Shown here piece after piece: positions 33,772-44,196 of a stretch of 64,000 nucleotides of DNA. Position numbers and translations under genes: made by a program. Numbering within the stretch: position 1 is the first letter of the stretch; each line of letters opens with the position of its first letter. Source of the stretch: Anaerolineaceae bacterium. GTDB lineage: Bacteria; Chloroflexota; Anaerolineae; Aggregatilineales; Phototrophicaceae. The DNA is taken from assembly GCA_002699585.1 (NCBI GenBank), contig PABP01000036.1, positions 250,333 through 314,332 on the forward strand, read 5' to 3'. Below the pieces are notes generated by a model, which worked only from the letters and a program-made list of their open reading frames with translations, did no database searches and was not told the DNA's origin.

Positions 33772-36510
33772 TTACCCAAATGCTGGCACGACGAGGGGTT
33801 GCCCGCCTGTGTTGACGTAGTAATGCGGAATCCAGCCCACGCCATAGACATCCAGCGCGATGTCCTTTTTATAGGGCGAGATGGTCTGTTCTTCGATGTC
33901 GGCAGCGATCTCGACCCACTTCTGATTGATCTCGTTCAGCTTCTGCTCGTACTCGGCTTCCAGATCGACCATTTCGCGTTCCAGCTCGCTGATGACCTCG
34001 TGGCTTTCCTCGATGTCCGCTTCAGTCTGGCGCTTATAGCGATTGGCGCGCGACATACGCGACAGCGTGTAGTTGGTCCGGCCTTTGAAGATGCTCAGGA
34101 CGGCTTCACCGGTAGTATAGAGCGATTCCCGCTTGCGGTCTCGGATTTCCATGCGCTCGGCTTCGAGTTCGCGCTCTTTGCGGCGCAGCTTCTCTTCCAG
34201 GCGATCCATGGCGGCACCGTATTTCTGGTTGAGCTTGTCCATCTCATCGTCACGGGCTTCGCGGGCTTGCTGCGTCACGCGCGCCTGATAGTCGCTCATG
34301 TCCGTGTCCGGGTCACCATACAGCTTGAACTTCTTATGATACGGAATAATGAGCCGTGCTGTGTTATACAGGAAATCGACCACATCTTTTTGAAGCGCCT
34401 TGACCCGCTTGGGGTCGGTCAGCCCAGCAGTGGGTTCCTGATAAACGGCCACATTGGCGTTGAATGGCTCCCGCGAGAGCTGGCGCGAATCGACCACAGG
34501 CGCGACGTGCTCATCCCAGTGGACCAAGCCCGATGGCATGAGTTCTGGCACATGGAAGGCATAACGGCGCGTGGTATAAATCTGGGCCGATTTTTGCGAA
34601 TAGCGCACGGTTGTCTGCGCGACCAGCACCGGGACATAGGCCAGCAAGACCTGTCCACCAGAGAAACGCTGTCCGGCCTGGCTGAACGCCTGCTGGTCAG
34701 TCAGGGTCGTCGGCAGGAAGTACTGGTCGATCTCATTGGGGATCGGAGGCGGCGAAGGCGACTGTATGAAGTTCCCCGGTAGCCGACCAGACTGCGAGCT
34801 ATTGCCTGCCTGTTGCGCCCCATAAGCGGGCTGCGCTGGCGCACCGTAGGGCGGCGTGCCTTGTTGAGGTGGCGTGCCATAAGGCGGTGTGCCCTGCGAC
34901 GGTGCGTTGAACCCGGGTGGCGGTGGTGGCGTCATGCCCCCCATCGCGTTATTCATCGGCGGCGCTGACTGGGCACCGTAACCCATCGGCTGCGTCATGG
35001 CACTGGCGTAGCCCTGCTGGGCCTGTTGCCAGGGATTATGCTGTAGCTGCGGCTGGGCATACGGATTTTGCTGCATCATTGATGAAAGCTGCTGCTTTTT
35101 GCCCGCCATCAACTGGCTGATCTGTGGGCGCGTCAACGGGCCAGCCAGGTAATTCATGGCCCAGCGCGTATGCACCAGCAGTGGGCCGCCCCGGTTGTGC
35201 ACGTTACGCATGAGGAACACGCGCGGCTTGAGTTCAGCGATCAACTGGCCGGATTCTTCAATATTGAGGTCATCCTCAGCGGTAGCTAACTCCCGCAGGC
35301 CAGCCATCACGCGCTTATAGTCGTTTTCGCTCTGCAATCGCCCGATGAACCAGGTACCCGCATTGGTCAGGCCCTTGTAATCGAGGTCGCCGGGGTTCTG
35401 CGTCGCCAAAATCAAGCCCACACCGAAAGCGCGCGCCTGTTTAAGCAGACGCATCAACGGGTCTTTGGTGGGCGGGTTCTTGGGATAGGGCGGGAAATAG
35501 CCGAACATCTCATCCACGTAGAGCAGGGCACGCAGGCTGGATGTGCCGCTTTGCATGCGCATCCAGGCATTCATGCTCTCCAGCAGCAGGGTCATGATGA
35601 ACATGCGCTCCTGGTCACTGAGGTGGGCGATGTAGAACACGCTGACCTTGGGCTTGCCATCGGGCGTGTAGAGCAAATGCTGAATGTCGAGCGGCTCACC
35701 CTGAATCCAACTAGCGAAAGAAGGCGCGGCAATCACGCTGTTGAGTTCCATCGCCAGGTTGTAGCGCTTCTTCTCGCTGATGTACTGATCGACCGCGAAC
35801 ACGCCCAGTTTTTCAAAAGGCGGCTGCTGTATTTGCAGGATGATGTCCTCGATGGTCATGTCGCGGCCCATGCGCCAGTTGTACTCGATGATATTGGCCA
35901 TCAGCACATGCGGCTCGTCCGTGACTGGGCGCATGTTCATGCCAGCCAGCGCATAGATAGCCGTCACCACGCCGTTGATGCGCTCACGAATCAGTTCAGT
36001 CTGGGTGTTCCAATCCATACGCGGCGCTTTGAGCGATGCCAAAATGCTGATCGGCAGGCCCATATCGGAACCGGGCGTATAGATGCTCAGGCGGGTCGCC
36101 AGCTTGAGCCACTTGAGGCGGTCGGGCACGATATCCCAACGAGCGAGGCCATCGCGCCATTTGGCGGCTTCGTGGGCCGCAAATTGGTCGGGTGACATAT
36201 TGGCACGACGGGCGTCGTCTTCCATAATCCAGGGTCGGAATTCCTGCGGGTCCAGGTTGGGGAAGGTCAGTGCCAGGTTGGTGATGTCGCCTTTAGGGTC
36301 GATGACAATCGCCGGAATGTTATCCAGAATGGCTTCTTCCAGCATACTGATACACAGACCGGTTTTACCACTGCCGGTCATGCCGACCACGACAGCATGC
36401 GTCGTCAGATCACGCGAGTCATAGTAGACTACGTCGTCGGTCAGCTTTTTGGCGCGATTGTCATACATGCGGCCCAGGTAAAAATTGGTAGGGGCTTCAA
36501 TAAATGCCAT
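33772..36510 (-). CDS. HerA/VirB4-like P-loop ATPase, large form
   Basis: 912 residues. Walker A GMTGSGKT (~residues 43-50), followed by IVIDPKGDITNLALT, and Walker B LLYVDEM (~330) then TQNPGDLDYKGLTNAG and an arginine-rich region: a HerA/FtsK-type hexameric motor core (DUF87/DUF853 class). A Pro/Gln/Gly linker of ~110 residues (477-590) joins it to a C-terminal part with a long charged coiled coil (~750-870, DKLNQKYGAAMDRLEEKLRR). ATG 36510 follows AGGAGA. HerA-type ATPases drive DNA translocation; no nuclease partner or other defence gene adjoins, so I do not assign a defence role. An operator-like palindrome lies upstream. Confidence 0.85.
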   Translation of the reverse strand: MAFIEAPTNFYLGRMYDNRAKKLTDDVVYYDSRDLTTHAVVVGMTGSGKTGLCISMLEEAILDNIPAIVIDPKGDITNLALTFPNLDPQEFRPWIMEDDARRANMSPDQFAAHEAAKWRDGLARWDIVPDRLKWLKLATRLSIYTPGSDMGLPISILASLKAPRMDWNTQTELIRERINGVVTAIYALAGMNMRPVTDEPHVLMANIIEYNWRMGRDMTIEDIILQIQQPPFEKLGVFAVDQYISEKKRYNLAMELNSVIAAPSFASWIQGEPLDIQHLLYTPDGKPKVSVFYIAHLSDQERMFIMTLLLESMNAWMRMQSGTSSLRALLYVDEMFGYFPPYPKNPPTKDPLMRLLKQARAFGVGLILATQNPGDLDYKGLTNAGTWFIGRLQSENDYKRVMAGLRELATAEDDLNIEESGQLIAELKPRVFLMRNVHNRGGPLLVHTRWAMNYLAGPLTRPQISQLMAGKKQQLSSMMQQNPYAQPQLQHNPWQQAQQGYASAMTQPMGYGAQSAPPMNNAMGGMTPPPPPGFNAPSQGTPPYGTPPQQGTPPYGAPAQPAYGAQQAGNSSQSGRLPGNFIQSPSPPPIPNEIDQYFLPTTLTDQQAFSQAGQRFSGGQVLLAYVPVLVAQTTVRYSQKSAQIYTTRRYAFHVPELMPSGLVHWDEHVAPVVDSRQLSREPFNANVAVYQEPTAGLTDPKRVKALQKDVVDFLYNTARLIIPYHKKFKLYGDPDTDMSDYQARVTQQAREARDDEMDKLNQKYGAAMDRLEEKLRRKERELEAERMEIRDRKRESLYTTGEAVLSIFKGRTNYTLSRMSRANRYKRQTEADIEESHEVISELEREMVDLEAEYEQKLNEINQKWVEIAADIEEQTISPYKKDIALDVYGVGWIPHYYVNTGGQPLVVPAFG

Positions 36511-37687: not shown

Positions 37688-39550
37688 TTAGCAGCCTAGT
37701 TCGGTCTGGATGGCATGGGCGAAGTTGATCAACAAGTCGGCCTGGGCCTGGGTGATGCCACCTTCGGCCAGGTTGTCTGCGACATGCACGAGGAACTCGT
37801 CTAGCTTATTGCACACGGCCCCGTCATTGCTCGGATTGTTATCATTCAACAAACGATCCGCTTGGTTGACAGGCCCAACAAGGCTATTTTCCACACCATT
37901 GGGCAGGCCCATATTCTCAATTCCCTGGCTCAAAGTACCCGTTGAACCTGTATCAACGCCCACCGTCACATTGAAGGATGCTGTGCCCGTATTGCCAGCA
38001 GCATCCTGCGCGGTGCAGGTCACTGCGACGGTCCCCAGATAGAAGGTGCTACCTGAAGCCGGACTACAACTCGAGCTTGTCGCGCCCACGATGTCGGATG
38101 GTGTTGCGGTGTAGCTCACGACTGCACCCGATAGGCCTGTAGCGATGACTGAAATGTCAGCGGGTACGGTCCAGGTGGGAGCGATTGTATCTTCGACGGT
38201 TACATTGAACGATGCTGTGCCCGTGTTGCCAGCAGCATCCGCTGCCGTACAGGTCACGGGGGTTGTACCAATTGCAAAGGTACTCCCTGAAACTGGACTG
38301 CAACTTGAACTGGCCACACCCACAATATCGGAGGCACTCGCTGTGTAGTTCACGACTGCGCCGGAAGCCGAGGTGGCTTCTTCTGTGATGTCAGCGGGTA
38401 CGGTCCAGGTGGGGGCGGTCGTATCCTCGACGGTTACATTGAAGGATGCTGTGCCCGTGTTGCCAGCAGCATCCGCTGCCGTACAGGTCACAGGCGTTGT
38501 CCCAATTGCAAAGGTGCTCCCTGAAACTGGGCTACAACTTGAACTGGCCACACCCACAATATCGGAGGCACTCGCTGTGTAGTTCACGACTGCGCCGGAA
38601 GCCGAGGTGGCTTCTTCTGTGATGTCAGCGGGCACGGTCCAGGTGGGGGCAGTCGTATCCTCGACGGTTACTGTGAAAGTTGCTGTGGCTGTATTGCCAG
38701 CAACATCCGTCGCTGTACAGGTCACAGTTGTTGTCCCGATAGCAAACGTACTGCCTGACGCCGGGACACAGCCGAAAGTCGCCAAACCAACATTATCAGT
38801 TGCACTCGCTGTGTAATTGACGACTGCGCCAGCGGCAGAAGTTGGGTCTAACGTGATGTCAGCAGGCATCGTCAAATTCGGTGGCGTCGTATCCTCAACG
38901 GTCACTGTGAATGATGCTGTGCCCGTATTGCCAGCGGCATCCGCCGCCGTGCAAGTCACAGTTGCCGTGCCGATAGTGAAGGTACTGCCTGAAGCCGGAC
39001 TACAGCTTGAGCTGGTCACACCGACATTATCAGATGCTGTCGCAGTGTAGTTGACTACCGCACCCGCAGCAGACGTCGCGCTAACTGTGATATTGGCAGG
39101 TACCGACCAGCTTGGTGCTTCCGTATCGGTTGGCACAGGCTTGTTCTGGGTGACGATGGTCACCGTCCAGCCTGACGCATATTCGGCAAAGTTGGTGTTG
39201 ATGAACCAGGATAATTGGCATCCCGAGTTATTGGCAGAAAATGACTGATTAAGGTTACTTGTGCCAGTTAGACCGCAGCCAACCAAATTATGCGGTCCAC
39301 CGGGTCCACTATAGGCAACACTTGTCACTTCAAGATTCGATGGAATGTTCACATTGAATGGATCTTGACCATCAGTGGGCGTCGGTCCGAGAGAACCTGT
39401 AATGGTTTGGGAACCGAGCGCAGCGGTGAAAGTTGGCGCATTGGGATAGGCCCAATCACCAGACTCAGTTGCAAGGCTTCCGGCAAAGACGGTGGTCGTC
39501 AATGCACCTAACAACAAGACAATTATAAGTACTAAAATCGATTTTTTCAT
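37688..39550 (-). CDS. Secreted HYR-repeat protein with FIMAH-like C-terminal domain
   Basis: 620 residues: signal peptide (KKSILVLIIVLLLGALTTTV), an N-terminal domain with two cysteines (residues ~25-140), then five HYR (hyalin) repeats of ~78 residues. Each follows the pattern DTTAPTWTVPADIT, GAVVNYTASASD, SSSCSPVSGSTFAIGTTPV and CTAADAAGNTGTASF. Two central repeats are virtually identical. The C-terminal ~75 residues (DEFLVHVADNLAEGGITQAQ and ADLLINFAHAIQTEL) resemble the FIMAH helical domain found with HYR repeats. Probably a surface or extracellular adhesin. ATG 39550 follows GAGGGG. Confidence 0.9.
   Translation of the reverse strand: MKKSILVLIIVLLLGALTTTVFAGSLATESGDWAYPNAPTFTAALGSQTITGSLGPTPTDGQDPFNVNIPSNLEVTSVAYSGPGGPHNLVGCGLTGTSNLNQSFSANNSGCQLSWFINTNFAEYASGWTVTIVTQNKPVPTDTEAPSWSVPANITVSATSAAGAVVNYTATASDNVGVTSSSCSPASGSTFTIGTATVTCTAADAAGNTGTASFTVTVEDTTPPNLTMPADITLDPTSAAGAVVNYTASATDNVGLATFGCVPASGSTFAIGTTTVTCTATDVAGNTATATFTVTVEDTTAPTWTVPADITEEATSASGAVVNYTASASDIVGVASSSCSPVSGSTFAIGTTPVTCTAADAAGNTGTASFNVTVEDTTAPTWTVPADITEEATSASGAVVNYTASASDIVGVASSSCSPVSGSTFAIGTTPVTCTAADAAGNTGTASFNVTVEDTIAPTWTVPADISVIATGLSGAVVSYTATPSDIVGATSSSCSPASGSTFYLGTVAVTCTAQDAAGNTGTASFNVTVGVDTGSTGTLSQGIENMGLPNGVENSLVGPVNQADRLLNDNNPSNDGAVCNKLDEFLVHVADNLAEGGITQAQADLLINFAHAIQTELGC
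38160..38630. repeat. Near-identical tandem HYR coding repeats
   Basis: Two consecutive 234-bp units inside the HYR gene differ by few bases and encode identical protein over the full repeat; the flanking units are more diverged. This points to recent duplication or gene conversion. Confidence 0.75.
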
Positions 39551-40168: not shown

Positions 40169-40777
40169 ATGGCACAAAACTACAGCTTAACCGACAAAAT
40201 TGCGGCATTGGATACGTTAGCGGCGCATAACGAGGACCTCAACGCGGCCAGTGATGCCTGCGGCGTCAGTGTGAAGACCCTGCGCAAATGGCAGCAGCAA
40301 GAGGCGACGATTCGGCAGCAGCAGGCGCAGCGGTCGATTTTGCTTGCTCGGCAACAGATGGCCGATAAAGCACTCAATCTGGTGCAGGCCATTGATGGCG
40401 AGATGATCGCCAAAGCGCCGCTGAACCAGATCGCCAGTGCGTTAGGTGTACTGGTGGATCGTTACCTCAAGCTGGAAGACGCCGTGCCGGATGACGACAC
40501 AGAGAAAGTAGTTCGCTTTGAGTATTTCTACGACGGCTCAACTCATGTGGCCCCACCCTGGGCAAACCCGGATTATCGAAGCGACGAGCCGCTTCAAGGT
40601 GGTCGCGTGCGGTCGCCGCTTCGGCAAGACGGCGCTGGCACGGACCTTGTTAACGGAAAAAGCCGTTCAGCATGGGATGAAGACCTGGTGGCTGGCCCCG
40701 ACCTATCCGATGGCGACCCAGGTCTGGCGCGACTTGAAGACGGGCCTGACGAGCCTCGCCGCGACTGGTCGGATTAA
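40169..40777 (+). CDS. Terminase small subunit-like protein
   Basis: Start ATG 40169 (MAQNYSLTDKIAALDTLAAH); an upstream in-frame TTG is ignored. The N-terminal ~60 residues hold a helix-turn-helix (NEDLNAASDACGVSVKTLRKWQ) like those of phage terminase small subunits, followed by a helical region (ILLARQQMADKALNLVQAID) used for oligomerisation. The last ~75 residues lie in the same DNA as the start of the large-subunit gene in another frame and have composition of a shadow reading, so the true C-terminus may be near residue 130 and the natural stop lost. It sits directly upstream of the large subunit, as in phage. Confidence 0.6.
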   Translation: MAQNYSLTDKIAALDTLAAHNEDLNAASDACGVSVKTLRKWQQQEATIRQQQAQRSILLARQQMADKALNLVQAIDGEMIAKAPLNQIASALGVLVDRYLKLEDAVPDDDTEKVVRFEYFYDGSTHVAPPWANPDYRSDEPLQGGRVRSPLRQDGAGTDLVNGKSRSAWDEDLVAGPDLSDGDPGLARLEDGPDEPRRDWSD

Positions 40778-41750
40778 GGACATCGCTATCAGCGAAACGC
40801 ACAACCGCATCGACTTCGCCCCCAGCGGCGGCTCCATCGAGATACACAGCACCTTCAATGCCGACTATCTGCGTGGGGCGGGCCTAGATTATGCTGTTCT
40901 GGACGAAGCGGCCTATATGGACCCGACTGTCTGGCCGGAAGTGGTGCGGCCGATGCTGCTCGACCGTCGCGGTGGGGCCATCTTCCTGAGCACGCCCTTT
41001 GGCCGCAACTGGTTTTACCACCTGTTCCAGCACGGCAGCGACCCATTACAGCCAGATTGGGCCGCGTTTCAATTTCCGACGCACAGCAATCCGCTCATCA
41101 GCCCGGATGAACTACGCGATCTAGAGCGCATGACGCCCAGCCGCGTCTGGCGCGAAGAATACCTAGCGGAGTTCATCGACGACGCGGGGGCGGTGTTCCG
41201 GGGCGTGCGCGAGGCCCTCTATACCCCGCCGCTGCCCATCGAGCGCGAAGAAAGCCATCGCTATATTATGGGCGTCGATTGGGGGCGTGATAACGACTAC
41301 ACCGCCCTGGCCGTGCTGGATGCCACCAGCGGCGAACTGGTCGATATGGAACGTTACAATCAGGTGGGGTGGCAAGTGCAGCGCGGTTACATTCGGGATG
41401 CGTATCTGCGCTGGCAGCCACACGTCATCTGGGCGGAAGCCAACAGCATCGGCAGCGTGAATATCGAAGCGTTGCAGCAGGATGGACTGCCCGTGCGTCC
41501 CTTCATGACCACCAGCCGCAGCAAACCGCCGCTGATCGAAGGGTTGGCACTGGCCATCGAACGGCGCGACATCGCCCTTTTACCGGACCCGGTGCTACTC
41601 AATGAGCTGGAAGCCTACACTCTGGAACGGCTCCCTGGCGGCGGCTATCGTTATAGTGCGCCATCGGGCATGCACGATGACACGGTCATTGCGCTGGCAC
41701 TGGCCTGGTATGGGGCACAGCAAGGCAGCCTACGCCTGGACTTCGCGTAA
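40545..41750 (+). CDS. Phage terminase large subunit (TerL-like)
   Basis: Start set at ATG 40545 (MWPHPGQTRIIEATSRFKVV); a TTG at 40518 in the same frame is less likely. 401 residues with an adenine-binding region, Walker A-like GRRFGKT (23-29), Walker B with catalytic Glu LDEAAYMD (~119-126), the coupling motif FLSTPFGRNW, and the RNase H-like nuclease acids in MGVDWGRDNDYTALAVLD and at the end MHDDTVIALALAW. All key residues of ATPase and nuclease appear intact. No portal, capsid or tail gene is nearby, so this is a phage relic or domesticated pair with the small-subunit gene. Confidence 0.88.
   Translation: MWPHPGQTRIIEATSRFKVVACGRRFGKTALARTLLTEKAVQHGMKTWWLAPTYPMATQVWRDLKTGLTSLAATGRIKDIAISETHNRIDFAPSGGSIEIHSTFNADYLRGAGLDYAVLDEAAYMDPTVWPEVVRPMLLDRRGGAIFLSTPFGRNWFYHLFQHGSDPLQPDWAAFQFPTHSNPLISPDELRDLERMTPSRVWREEYLAEFIDDAGAVFRGVREALYTPPLPIEREESHRYIMGVDWGRDNDYTALAVLDATSGELVDMERYNQVGWQVQRGYIRDAYLRWQPHVIWAEANSIGSVNIEALQQDGLPVRPFMTTSRSKPPLIEGLALAIERRDIALLPDPVLLNELEAYTLERLPGGGYRYSAPSGMHDDTVIALALAWYGAQQGSLRLDFA
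41672..41746 (+). repeat. 75-bp direct repeat, left copy (TerL 3' end)
   Basis: Begins GCACGATGACACGGTCATTG and ends at CTTCGC just before the TerL stop. Matches 42785-42859 at 70 of 75 positions. Confidence 0.85.
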
Positions 41751-41824
41751 CACTTTGCTCTTAAATTGTGCTAATATCAAATGGCGTGATGTGTTGAAAT
41801 TGTGGTCGATACTACAGGTGAAAA

Positions 41825-42784
41825 ATGCACACCGCCCTATTGGTAATAGCAACTCTCATGCTATTCATGATGCCTAACACCTCAGAGCAGACGGATGTGA
41901 AATCACTCGCGATTAGTCCAGATAGCCGCTTCGTTGTTTCGGCAAGGTCGGATACCCTAACCGTCTGGGACATTGAAAGCTGTTCCTTGCTTTCTGTTTT
42001 TGGGACACATCAAGGCATCGTCAACAGCGTATCCTATAGCCCAGATGGACAGCACGTTGTCACAGGCAGCGACGATCAAACGGCTATCATCTGGAACGTT
42101 ACTACAGGCGAAAAAGTGCATACTTTGCATCATGCCGATGTTGTGACTGTCGTCAACTATAGCCCGAACGGCCTTTTGATCGTAACCGGAAGCAGAAACG
42201 GCATCCTCACTATCTGGAACGCTAGCACAGGAGAGGAGTTCGCTCATCTCGTTCTTGATGGCAGAATCTGGAGTGCTGAATTTAGCCCGGATGGTCAGCG
42301 TATTCTGATTGCAAATGGCCACTATGCGTTAATGCTGGATGTGGCCACGGAAACAATTTTGTATCGTGTCAGCAATCCACATGCTGCAAGTTTAGAATAT
42401 GCGACGTTTCATCCAAATGGCCAGTTATTCGCAACGACAGGATATCAATCCGCTCTCGCTTTTGTTTGGGATTCTCAAAGCGGTGAATTACGCATAGAAA
42501 TGTCCCGGCGACTGGGCGATTTTTATCATCTTGCATATTCACCCGACGGAGAACTCATATCCGGTATAGAAAGAAGCGTACCAATTAATCTTGACGTCCA
42601 ATATAATTGGGTTATACGAGATACAAGGACCGATGAGAGAGCTTTCAGTGCTTTTGATTTCGACTCAGTTAATGTTTCAGAATTTAGTCCTGATAATCGG
42701 TATTTCGTTATCAACTCTGGTGAAGAAATAAGCGTTTACGATACCTCGTCATGGAAAATCATCTGTAGCTTACGTTCAAATTGA
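41825..42784 (+). CDS. WD40-repeat protein inserted at the TerL 3' end
   Basis: 319 residues with a hydrophobic N-terminal segment (ALLVIATLMLFMMP) that may be a signal or anchor. Repeats of the WD40 type follow: AISPDSRFVVSARSDTLTVWD, SYSPDGQHVVTGSDDQTAIIWN, NYSPNGLLIVTGSRNGILTIWN, EFSPDGQRILIAN and later weaker ones, about six blades. ATG 41825 follows AGGTGAAAA. Its sequence is clearly richer in A and T than the surrounding genes. It lies wholly between the two 75-bp repeats, indicating that it arrived as a unit. Function unknown. Confidence 0.85.
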   Translation: MHTALLVIATLMLFMMPNTSEQTDVKSLAISPDSRFVVSARSDTLTVWDIESCSLLSVFGTHQGIVNSVSYSPDGQHVVTGSDDQTAIIWNVTTGEKVHTLHHADVVTVVNYSPNGLLIVTGSRNGILTIWNASTGEEFAHLVLDGRIWSAEFSPDGQRILIANGHYALMLDVATETILYRVSNPHAASLEYATFHPNGQLFATTGYQSALAFVWDSQSGELRIEMSRRLGDFYHLAYSPDGELISGIERSVPINLDVQYNWVIRDTRTDERAFSAFDFDSVNVSEFSPDNRYFVINSGEEISVYDTSSWKIICSLRSN

Positions 42785-42859
42785 GCACGATGACACGGTC
42801 ATTGCGCTGGCGCTGGCCTGGTATGGGGCACAACAAGGCAATTTACGCCTGGACTTCGC
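42785..42859 (+). repeat. 75-bp direct repeat, right copy (orphan TerL tail)
   Basis: Second copy of the TerL 3' end, encoding HDDTVIALALAWYGAQQGN and then LRLDFA plus a stop, but with no gene in frame before it. It starts at the base right after the WD40 stop. Differences from the left copy are mostly silent. Confidence 0.85.
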
Positions 42860-42888
42860 ATGACAAGTCCTACCTGAGATTGCATCTC

Positions 42889-42914
42889 GCCTGACCTTAG
42901 GGTCGGGCTTTTTT
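42889..42914 (+). terminator. Terminator after the terminase/WD40 island
   Basis: GCCTGACC (42889-42896), TTAG loop, GGTCGGGC (42901-42908), then TTTTTT. Strong intrinsic terminator, 27 nt after the stop of the orphan TerL tail, so it was probably the original TerL terminator. Confidence 0.85.
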
Positions 42915-43002: not shown

Positions 43003-44196
43003 ATGCAAAAACGCTTGAGCGTCATCGGATTGGCGCTGGTGCTGACACTGGTTGTATGGACAGTGGCCGCGCAGGACGAGCCAGACATCGACAGCCTGGT
43101 GGTTGTGAACACGATTGAAACAGACCTACGAGGTGGCCCAGGCGCTACGGCTGGGTATCTATCGCCAGATGGCAGCTTGCTGGCCCATAATGATGGCAGC
43201 AGTTTTTGTTTCTATACGCTGCCGGATCTAGCCGAAACGAGCTGCACACCCTTCCTTGAAAATCGCCGCCCACAAGCAGATTCAGTCATTTGGTCGCCGG
43301 ACAGCCGCTACCTAGTCTTTATGGATAATGACCTGCTGCGTATGTTCCGGGACAGTGACATCTGGATTATCGATAGTGCCGATGGCAGCATGACCAACCT
43401 GACTGAAGATGACACCTTCGATGTGGCCCTCATGAGAGAGCCAGAGGGTCCCGTTGGGTTAATGGACCTGTCCCCACAGTGGGTCGATGACACGACAATT
43501 GCCTTCATTCGCTACACCTATTTAGAAGACGAAGAGACCTATTCAACGGCTGAGTTATTTACGGTCTCGGTCGATGGGGGTGACGCCACGCTCCTATATT
43601 CCATCCCCCAGAGCAACGGGCGCCTGGATATGTATTACATGGGCTGGCGGCCTTATAGCAACCAGTACGTCGTCAACATCTGGCAGCGCAATGATGAGGT
43701 CGATGCGTATGGCTTGCTGATGTCCCAGGATGGCGATACACCAGTATCCGTGCTAGCGAGTACCGACCCCACCAGCCGCGCGGCAAACATCCAGACGATT
43801 ACCATCGCCCCCAATGGGGAAAGTGTGCTGCATTATGATGGTCAGATGTTGGGTATGGGCAGACCGCCTACTTCCCCAGAAGACAGCGTGGCGATGGTCA
43901 CGCAATTTGAGGATCGGGCAACGGTTTTAATTGACCCAGAACGCCCAGCCTGGGAAGCAGGATGGGCACCGGATGGCCAGGGCATGGTCTATACGGTGCG
44001 CTCACCACAAGATGAGCAAAGCGAGGGCCTTTACCTGACTAGCGCAGTCGGTGAGCCAGGGCATATGATCCTAGAGGGCCGCTTCGGTGGTACGACGCCC
44101 TATCGCCAGCAGCCGATCCAATGGGCCAGCAACAACACGATCCTGGTGACAGACGGAGAAAGTCAACTGGTTGTAGTCGAATTGGGTACAGAGTAG
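43003..44196 (+). CDS. Secreted beta-propeller protein (TolB-like)
   Basis: 397 residues with signal peptide (MQKRLSVIGLALVLTLVVWT, cleaved near AAQ). The mature part shows blade motifs of the TolB/WD-like type: ATAGYLSPDGSLLAHNDGSS, VIWSPDSRYLVFMDND, MDLSPQWVDDTTIAFIRYTY, GWAPDGQGMVYTVRSP and PIQWASNNTILVTDG. Two cysteines in the N-terminal part (SSFCFYT, TSCTPFL). No catalytic motif. Likely a periplasmic or exported binding protein. It has its own terminator at 44212. Confidence 0.8.
   Translation: MQKRLSVIGLALVLTLVVWTVAAQDEPDIDSLVVVNTIETDLRGGPGATAGYLSPDGSLLAHNDGSSFCFYTLPDLAETSCTPFLENRRPQADSVIWSPDSRYLVFMDNDLLRMFRDSDIWIIDSADGSMTNLTEDDTFDVALMREPEGPVGLMDLSPQWVDDTTIAFIRYTYLEDEETYSTAELFTVSVDGGDATLLYSIPQSNGRLDMYYMGWRPYSNQYVVNIWQRNDEVDAYGLLMSQDGDTPVSVLASTDPTSRAANIQTITIAPNGESVLHYDGQMLGMGRPPTSPEDSVAMVTQFEDRATVLIDPERPAWEAGWAPDGQGMVYTVRSPQDEQSEGLYLTSAVGEPGHMILEGRFGGTTPYRQQPIQWASNNTILVTDGESQLVVVELGTE

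Follow-up and report, generated by a model that had tools for sequence, protein, structure and literature searches.

Insertion with long target duplication was described for Helicobacter pylori (Nobusato et al. 2000, Gene 259:99, as cited in PMC1643837, PMC3031569, and PMC4978471). According to the excerpts available, a gene-sized insert, frequently with restriction-modification genes, has long direct repeats of target sequence on either side, the repeat varies in length, and no transposase is invoked. Mobile ORFs (mORFs) of fungal mitochondria are associated with a C-terminal duplication and a homing endonuclease (PMC3630166); as far as the accessible text goes, such an insert brings another gene end with it, the native end is displaced downstream, and a hybrid gene is in use. 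In homology-facilitated illegitimate recombination, known from transformation and conjugation, one end is joined by homology and the other is not (PMC3240628, in excerpt). Flanking repeats are likewise reported for transposed genes of Arabidopsis in the accessible part of PMC2869330. Gene transfer agents, finally, are phage head genes kept by the host, which can be spread over several small loci, some of them with one or two genes (PMC11841831, in excerpt).

The locus reported here lies in a stretch of 64,000 nucleotides, called the window, from an Anaerolineaceae bacterium (genome G000), and appears to resemble the first of these systems, a little-known integrase-free movement of single bacterial genes. 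Like the H. pylori cases as excerpted, it shows a gene-sized insert and a long direct target repeat, the length of which varies among similar cases, and no transposase has to be invoked. Unlike these, it belongs to Chloroflexota, the passengers are WD40, DinB, and HNH genes, and a terminase gene was hit repeatedly. With the mORFs it would share the arrival of another gene end, the displaced native end, and the hybrid gene in use, but mORFs are described as organellar and as carrying a homing endonuclease, which is absent from the window insert with WD40 as its sole gene. From integrase-driven integrative elements it differs by the absence of an integrase gene, as had been noted in a first-pass annotation of the sequence: family searches detected none in the insert, which was fully covered, or in sampled neighbour genes.

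The TerL tails and the WD40 insert

The features of the region are the following.

40169-40777, + strand: candidate TerS ORF of 202 aa, overlapping the TerL start; conserved upstream of TerL in relatives
40518-41750, + strand: TerL, terminase large subunit, intact (PF03237, PF17289, i.e. Terminase_6N, Terminase_6C; phrog_2)
41672-41752, + strand: left TerL tail copy, which is in use (repeat alignment; silent differences)
41751-42784, + strand: inserted segment of 1,034 bp, without counterpart at the G001 site
41825-42784, + strand: complete WD40 beta-propeller gene, the cargo (PF00400 and others)
42785-42865, + strand: right TerL tail copy, the native end now displaced and lacking a gene body (repeat, followed by the terminator as in G001)
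42889-42914, + strand: terminator-like stem (42889-42908) and T run, which would close both arrangements; an equivalent exists in G001

The designation TerS is that of a candidate, given from position and a helix-turn-helix look alone; the ORF yielded zero Pfam or PHROG family matches. Overlaps of this ORF with TerL, in different frames, reach 260 bp (40518-40777 in the window). Further upstream, a protein with five HYR-domain stretches (37688-39550) and a HerA-like ATPase (33772-36510) are encoded, and a homologue of the ATPase is also found upstream of TerL in G001.

A direct repeat of 81 bp, 91.4% identical (blastn E about 1e-28), connects positions 41672-41752 and 42785-42865. Its left copy consists of the last 79 bases of TerL and two bases beyond, and the second copy follows 1,113 bp downstream. 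At this E value, chance is ruled out as an explanation of the two tails. The first-pass annotation had reported the last 75 bp of TerL to recur at 42785-42859 with 70 of 75 bases identical; the count was correct, and the repeat really extends to 81 bp, with two further mismatches past 42859, GCG/GCA and TAA/TGA. Its description of the surroundings was borne out as well. The WD40 ORF is richer in A+T (G+C 0.43-0.48 vs 0.59-0.63 in TerL), the right copy abuts the TGA of WD40 directly, and a terminator-like stem lies beyond it.

Insertion at the 3' end of a gene with reconstruction of that end had been proposed from this layout, in which case a relative might retain an empty site with one TerL tail. 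Such a site is present in G001, the single other genome of the same genus in the comparison, and supports the proposal. TerL of G001 is 76% identical to the window protein, and its single tail is followed by terminator-like sequence and a gene 43% identical to the window gene at 43003-44196. Because G001 has one tail and the same next gene, the right copy stands in its native downstream context and the insert corresponds to 41751-42784. At the G001 site this insert is missing. In the window, TerL is completed by the left tail, the cargo is an entire gene, and the right tail, a copy without a gene body, is joined to the native terminator and the next gene. The left tail is read as the incoming copy.

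The WD40 gene occurs once in G000 at E 1e-20. Its nearest relative in 154 genomes is a degenerate copy elsewhere in G001, 64% identical over part of its length. DNA homology to this copy reaches 42771, which leaves 13 bp to the last base of the stop codon, so that the 3' end of the cargo is native.

Gene-end duplications at TerL and other genes

A comparison of 232 TerL tails, some of them from overlapping loci, with the DNA downstream of each revealed tail duplications at three loci, the window, G043, and G034, with repeats of 81, 80, and 93 bp, respectively, at both ends of the insert. In G043, which belongs to another genus, the 80 bp are 96% identical and surround a gene for a DinB/Pol IV polymerase of the Y family. 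Its empty site is found in G135, where the polymerase gene is missing and both flanks are about 89% identical. A paralog of this dinB, 80% identical, is present in the same genome; the homology spans the promoter region and nearly the entire gene and stops 7 bp short of the last base of the stop codon. In G034, again of another genus than the window, the 93 bp are 93.5% identical and surround ORF132 (132 aa) and an HNH endonuclease gene (PF01844, 5e-12); an empty site for G034 was not found. No transposase or integrase is contained in any of the three inserts. With the first base of the HDDT His codon taken as 0, the right copies start, as judged by eye, at about 0, +3, and +9. Among 80 terminase loci from IMG/VR, no tail duplication was detected.

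Tail-only matches at contig ends (G133, G144, G147, and others) were not counted as cargo cases, being multi-copy TerL paralogs cut by assembly, and a weak internal match of 28 bp in L128 was dropped upon inspection. Several near-identical TerL ends occur in genus g17 (L103-L110 in G133, L112-L113 in G144, L115-L118 in G147); in G133, the copies also share about 300 bp past the TerL stop, after which the similarity breaks off abruptly, as though the terminase unit itself moved. Close to the 3' end, a frame change or deletion disrupts TerL in L070 and L063 (G032, G051). The dinB paralog of G043 (L055:4119-5441, contig C14) adjoins a SRAP-like gene, so named by eye, and another TerL lies about 1 kb downstream of it.

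This kind of scar is not confined to TerL. A total of 102 loci (1,427,102 bases) were scanned for two-copy repeats of 40-150 bp with a spacing of 300-3000 bp and an identity of 85% or more, which yielded 17 direct repeats and one inverted; since the loci are terminase-centred except one, partly overlapping, and lean on genus g17, 17:1 is not the rate of a random sample. Besides the three TerL cases, two of the direct pairs, classified by eye like the rest, duplicate the 3' end of a gene around a passenger, namely asnB in G142 (83 bp) and an M42 peptidase gene in G147 (72 bp). Two more duplicate a 5' end (L105, and asnB in G052), two flank whole genes and lie between genes (L042, L071), and eight are intergenic repeats or paralogue fragments. 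With the same filter, 200 kb of G001 not chosen for TerL gave one direct and no inverted repeat: 67 bp of the 3' end of an AraC-like gene are repeated around a gene resembling, by eye, dihydrofolate reductase. The names asnB, M42, and AraC-like were also assigned by eye, without family search. In further controls, 200 kb of G163 gave neither direct nor inverted repeats, 200 kb of E. coli K-12 gave no direct and one inverted, and 831,203 bases of IMG/VR terminase contigs gave nine direct and no inverted, two contig pairs repeating each other. In 49 HNH-related loci no two-copy repeat of the scanned kind was present. An asnB-like gene with an end duplication is found in two genomes, once at the 3' and once at the 5' end (L137:2371-3212, L241:2021-2521).

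By a weak test, TerL may be struck more often than other genes: scars were present at three of roughly 110-165 TerL loci, the third coming from the targeted search, against two in the rest of 1,042 genes (P 0.01-0.03, depending on the denominator).

These additional scars bear on the likeness to integrase-driven elements drawn in the first-pass annotation. An integrative element that uses the TerL tail as its attachment site, and whose integrase was lost or acts in trans, would explain a tail rebuilt at a gene 3' end and a direct repeat bounding the insert. It is nevertheless very improbable, and the likeness did not hold up. The 1,034-bp insert is one gene with no integrase in the tested neighbours, the passengers differ in all three TerL cases, the repeats differ by 3-7 bases, and scars are present at unrelated genes, too.

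Silent differences and possible routes of insertion

The first-pass annotation had also seen that changes between the two tails are mostly silent. In frame, six codons are changed in the window, of which five are silent, counting the stop, and one leads from S to N. The other cases behave similarly, with 3/3 silent in G043, 5/5 in G034, 4/4 in asnB, 3/3 in M42, and 6/8 in the AraC-like gene, or 26 of 29 in the six cases pooled; under neutrality a silent share of about 0.28-0.32 is expected. For the first five cases (20/21 silent), the chance of such a result is 1e-9 with all changes placed in the dead copy and 2e-4 with about ten of them there, which makes decay in place after a simple duplication unlikely. 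With 26 of 29 changed codons silent, the two tails probably diverged as working alleles. Either the incoming DNA brought the gene end of another strain, or other alleles took the place of the working copy at a later time. A simple copying event followed by ordinary allele replacement could likewise produce silent differences, a point against insertion. When the window differences were polarised with G001, two bases were assigned to the left copy and four to the right, one being undecided. A diversity-generating retroelement was dropped from consideration, the differences not being confined to adenines.

Recombination between two TerL genes had been named as an alternative. The part of it that stood is that the tails look like diverged TerL alleles, and multi-copy TerL does exist in genus g17, but a second TerL body was not found in G000. 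A tandem pair of which the second gene lost all but its last 78 bp would, moreover, have to leave a remnant of similar length in three independent events, always directly at the cargo stop or no more than about 10 bp from it, and we give this history hardly any credence. Somewhat less improbable, though still clearly unlikely, is a replicative template switch, by which the fork would have left TerL, copied WD40 from another place in the genome, and come back to a point about 80 bp upstream, with a later allele exchange introducing the silent differences into the left tail. Outside DNA would not be required, and variable gene-end duplications at several genes are in line with it. The silent pattern would need the later recombination, however, and a copied source is missing, WD40 being present once in G000.

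The positions of the right junctions have to be considered as well. Lying within about 10 bp of one another in the three TerL cases, near the same HDDT codons, they would fit a specific cut site and speak against simple insertion. In a homing-type process, a nuclease would cut TerL at the HDDT codons and repair from a donor would bring the tail and a passenger, the nuclease gene having been replaced by WD40 in the window. The HNH endonuclease in the G034 cargo is compatible with such a process, as are the mostly silent differences, since synonymous ones are reported, in the accessible text, at an mORF-associated gene end, too (PMC3630166). Against it, the endonuclease is absent from the inserts of the window and G043, and similar scars are found at asnB, M42, and AraC-like genes. 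Duplications that share a length of 67-93 bp and are anchored at the gene end account for the clustering of the junctions without a cut site. We regard homing of this type, analogous to the mORFs, as unlikely here, albeit worth keeping in mind.

We consider it rather likely that WD40 came into the 3' end of the resident TerL by insertion with long target duplication, as a segment of gene size. The incoming DNA would have carried a related TerL tail followed by the cargo. Its left side would have entered by homology, and its far end would have been attached about 80 bp ahead of the TerL stop, with no homology or with a few matching bases. Because of the position of this joint, the last ~80 bp would now be present twice, and the left junction would be invisible because it lies inside the homology. 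An element-encoded integrase or transposase would be unnecessary, and TerL, its sequence being kept, could go on working, while the old tail would turn into untranslated spacer. That WD40 and DinB homology ends near the stop codons, the cargo having moved as whole genes, argues for insertion. No donor molecule or intermediate was seen. Homology-facilitated illegitimate recombination, as excerpted, would fit this joining; a gene-end duplication of ~80 bp as its usual product was not found described in the excerpts available.

Terminase, portal and capsid genes

Of 154 genomes of the order, 114 have TerL tails, 99 a portal gene (E 1e-80), and 103 a protease-capsid fusion (E 1e-60); in a sample of 396 genomes from the class, TerL tails were detected in 48. 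TerL relatives with named records are mostly from Anaerolineae or Chloroflexota, some from Aggregatilineales. The portal gene is single-copy in all listed genomes but one and the capsid gene in most, several extra entries being pieces of one gene. For the 98 genomes of the window's family, counting from the tables gave TerL in 85, portal in 79, and capsid in 81; portal and capsid are both absent from 15, portal alone from four, and capsid alone from two (Fisher P 3e-12). Among 19 genomes, protein distances correlate with Spearman coefficients of 0.62-0.78, a level that none of 2000 permutations reached. Comparison of G000 and G001 gave dN 0.18, dS 1.41, and dN/dS about 0.13 for TerL and dN/dS about 0.08 for the portal gene, with dS near saturation. 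The two Asp of the HDDT motif, which we take to be part of the nuclease active site, are invariant in 35 aligned TerL tails.

TerL, portal, and capsid genes lie near one another, in this order, at four loci of family f3 and one locus of f7. Within the family of the window, linkage is mostly absent, though some genera keep two or three of the genes in a span of about 20 kb. The unlinked loci of G000 (handles L335, L336, and L353) are these.

C28:456316-457731: portal
C5:290850-292079: terminase
C34 and C25: capsid

Genes so scattered could hardly travel as one phage, and a role kept by the host, for example as a gene transfer agent, is therefore the natural reading. Inherited together, mostly in one copy, grouped in sister families and dispersed in this one, TerL, portal, and capsid are candidates for a host-kept, gene-transfer-agent-like set, so far undescribed. 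As in the gene transfer agents of the excerpted literature, phage head genes appear to be host-kept and co-inherited in several loci. Unlike them, G000 has no intact particle-gene set: the capsid gene, whole in G001, is broken into two parts on different contigs (L353 near 8486, L336 near 9603) that share about 10 bases at the break, and the set may thus be dead in G000. It is possible, although doubtful, that the terminase is the packaging motor of an undescribed system of this type in Aggregatilineales-type Chloroflexota, with genes dispersed over the chromosome in one family, and that the short linear DNA passed by it from one relative to another yields gene-end duplications such as the WD40 insertion.

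Through its terminase, the locus also points to a candidate gene transfer agent of Chloroflexota, a phylum from which no such agent was found described in the excerpts of the literature searched. For the gain of genes, the scars would mean that single whole genes move into the ends of other genes, leaving the target intact and a recognisable scar of ~80 bp behind. Insertion with long target duplication would now be met outside Helicobacter and with ordinary passengers. Since the scar can be searched automatically and each event supplies paired alleles, the mechanism of integrase-free gene gain becomes testable.
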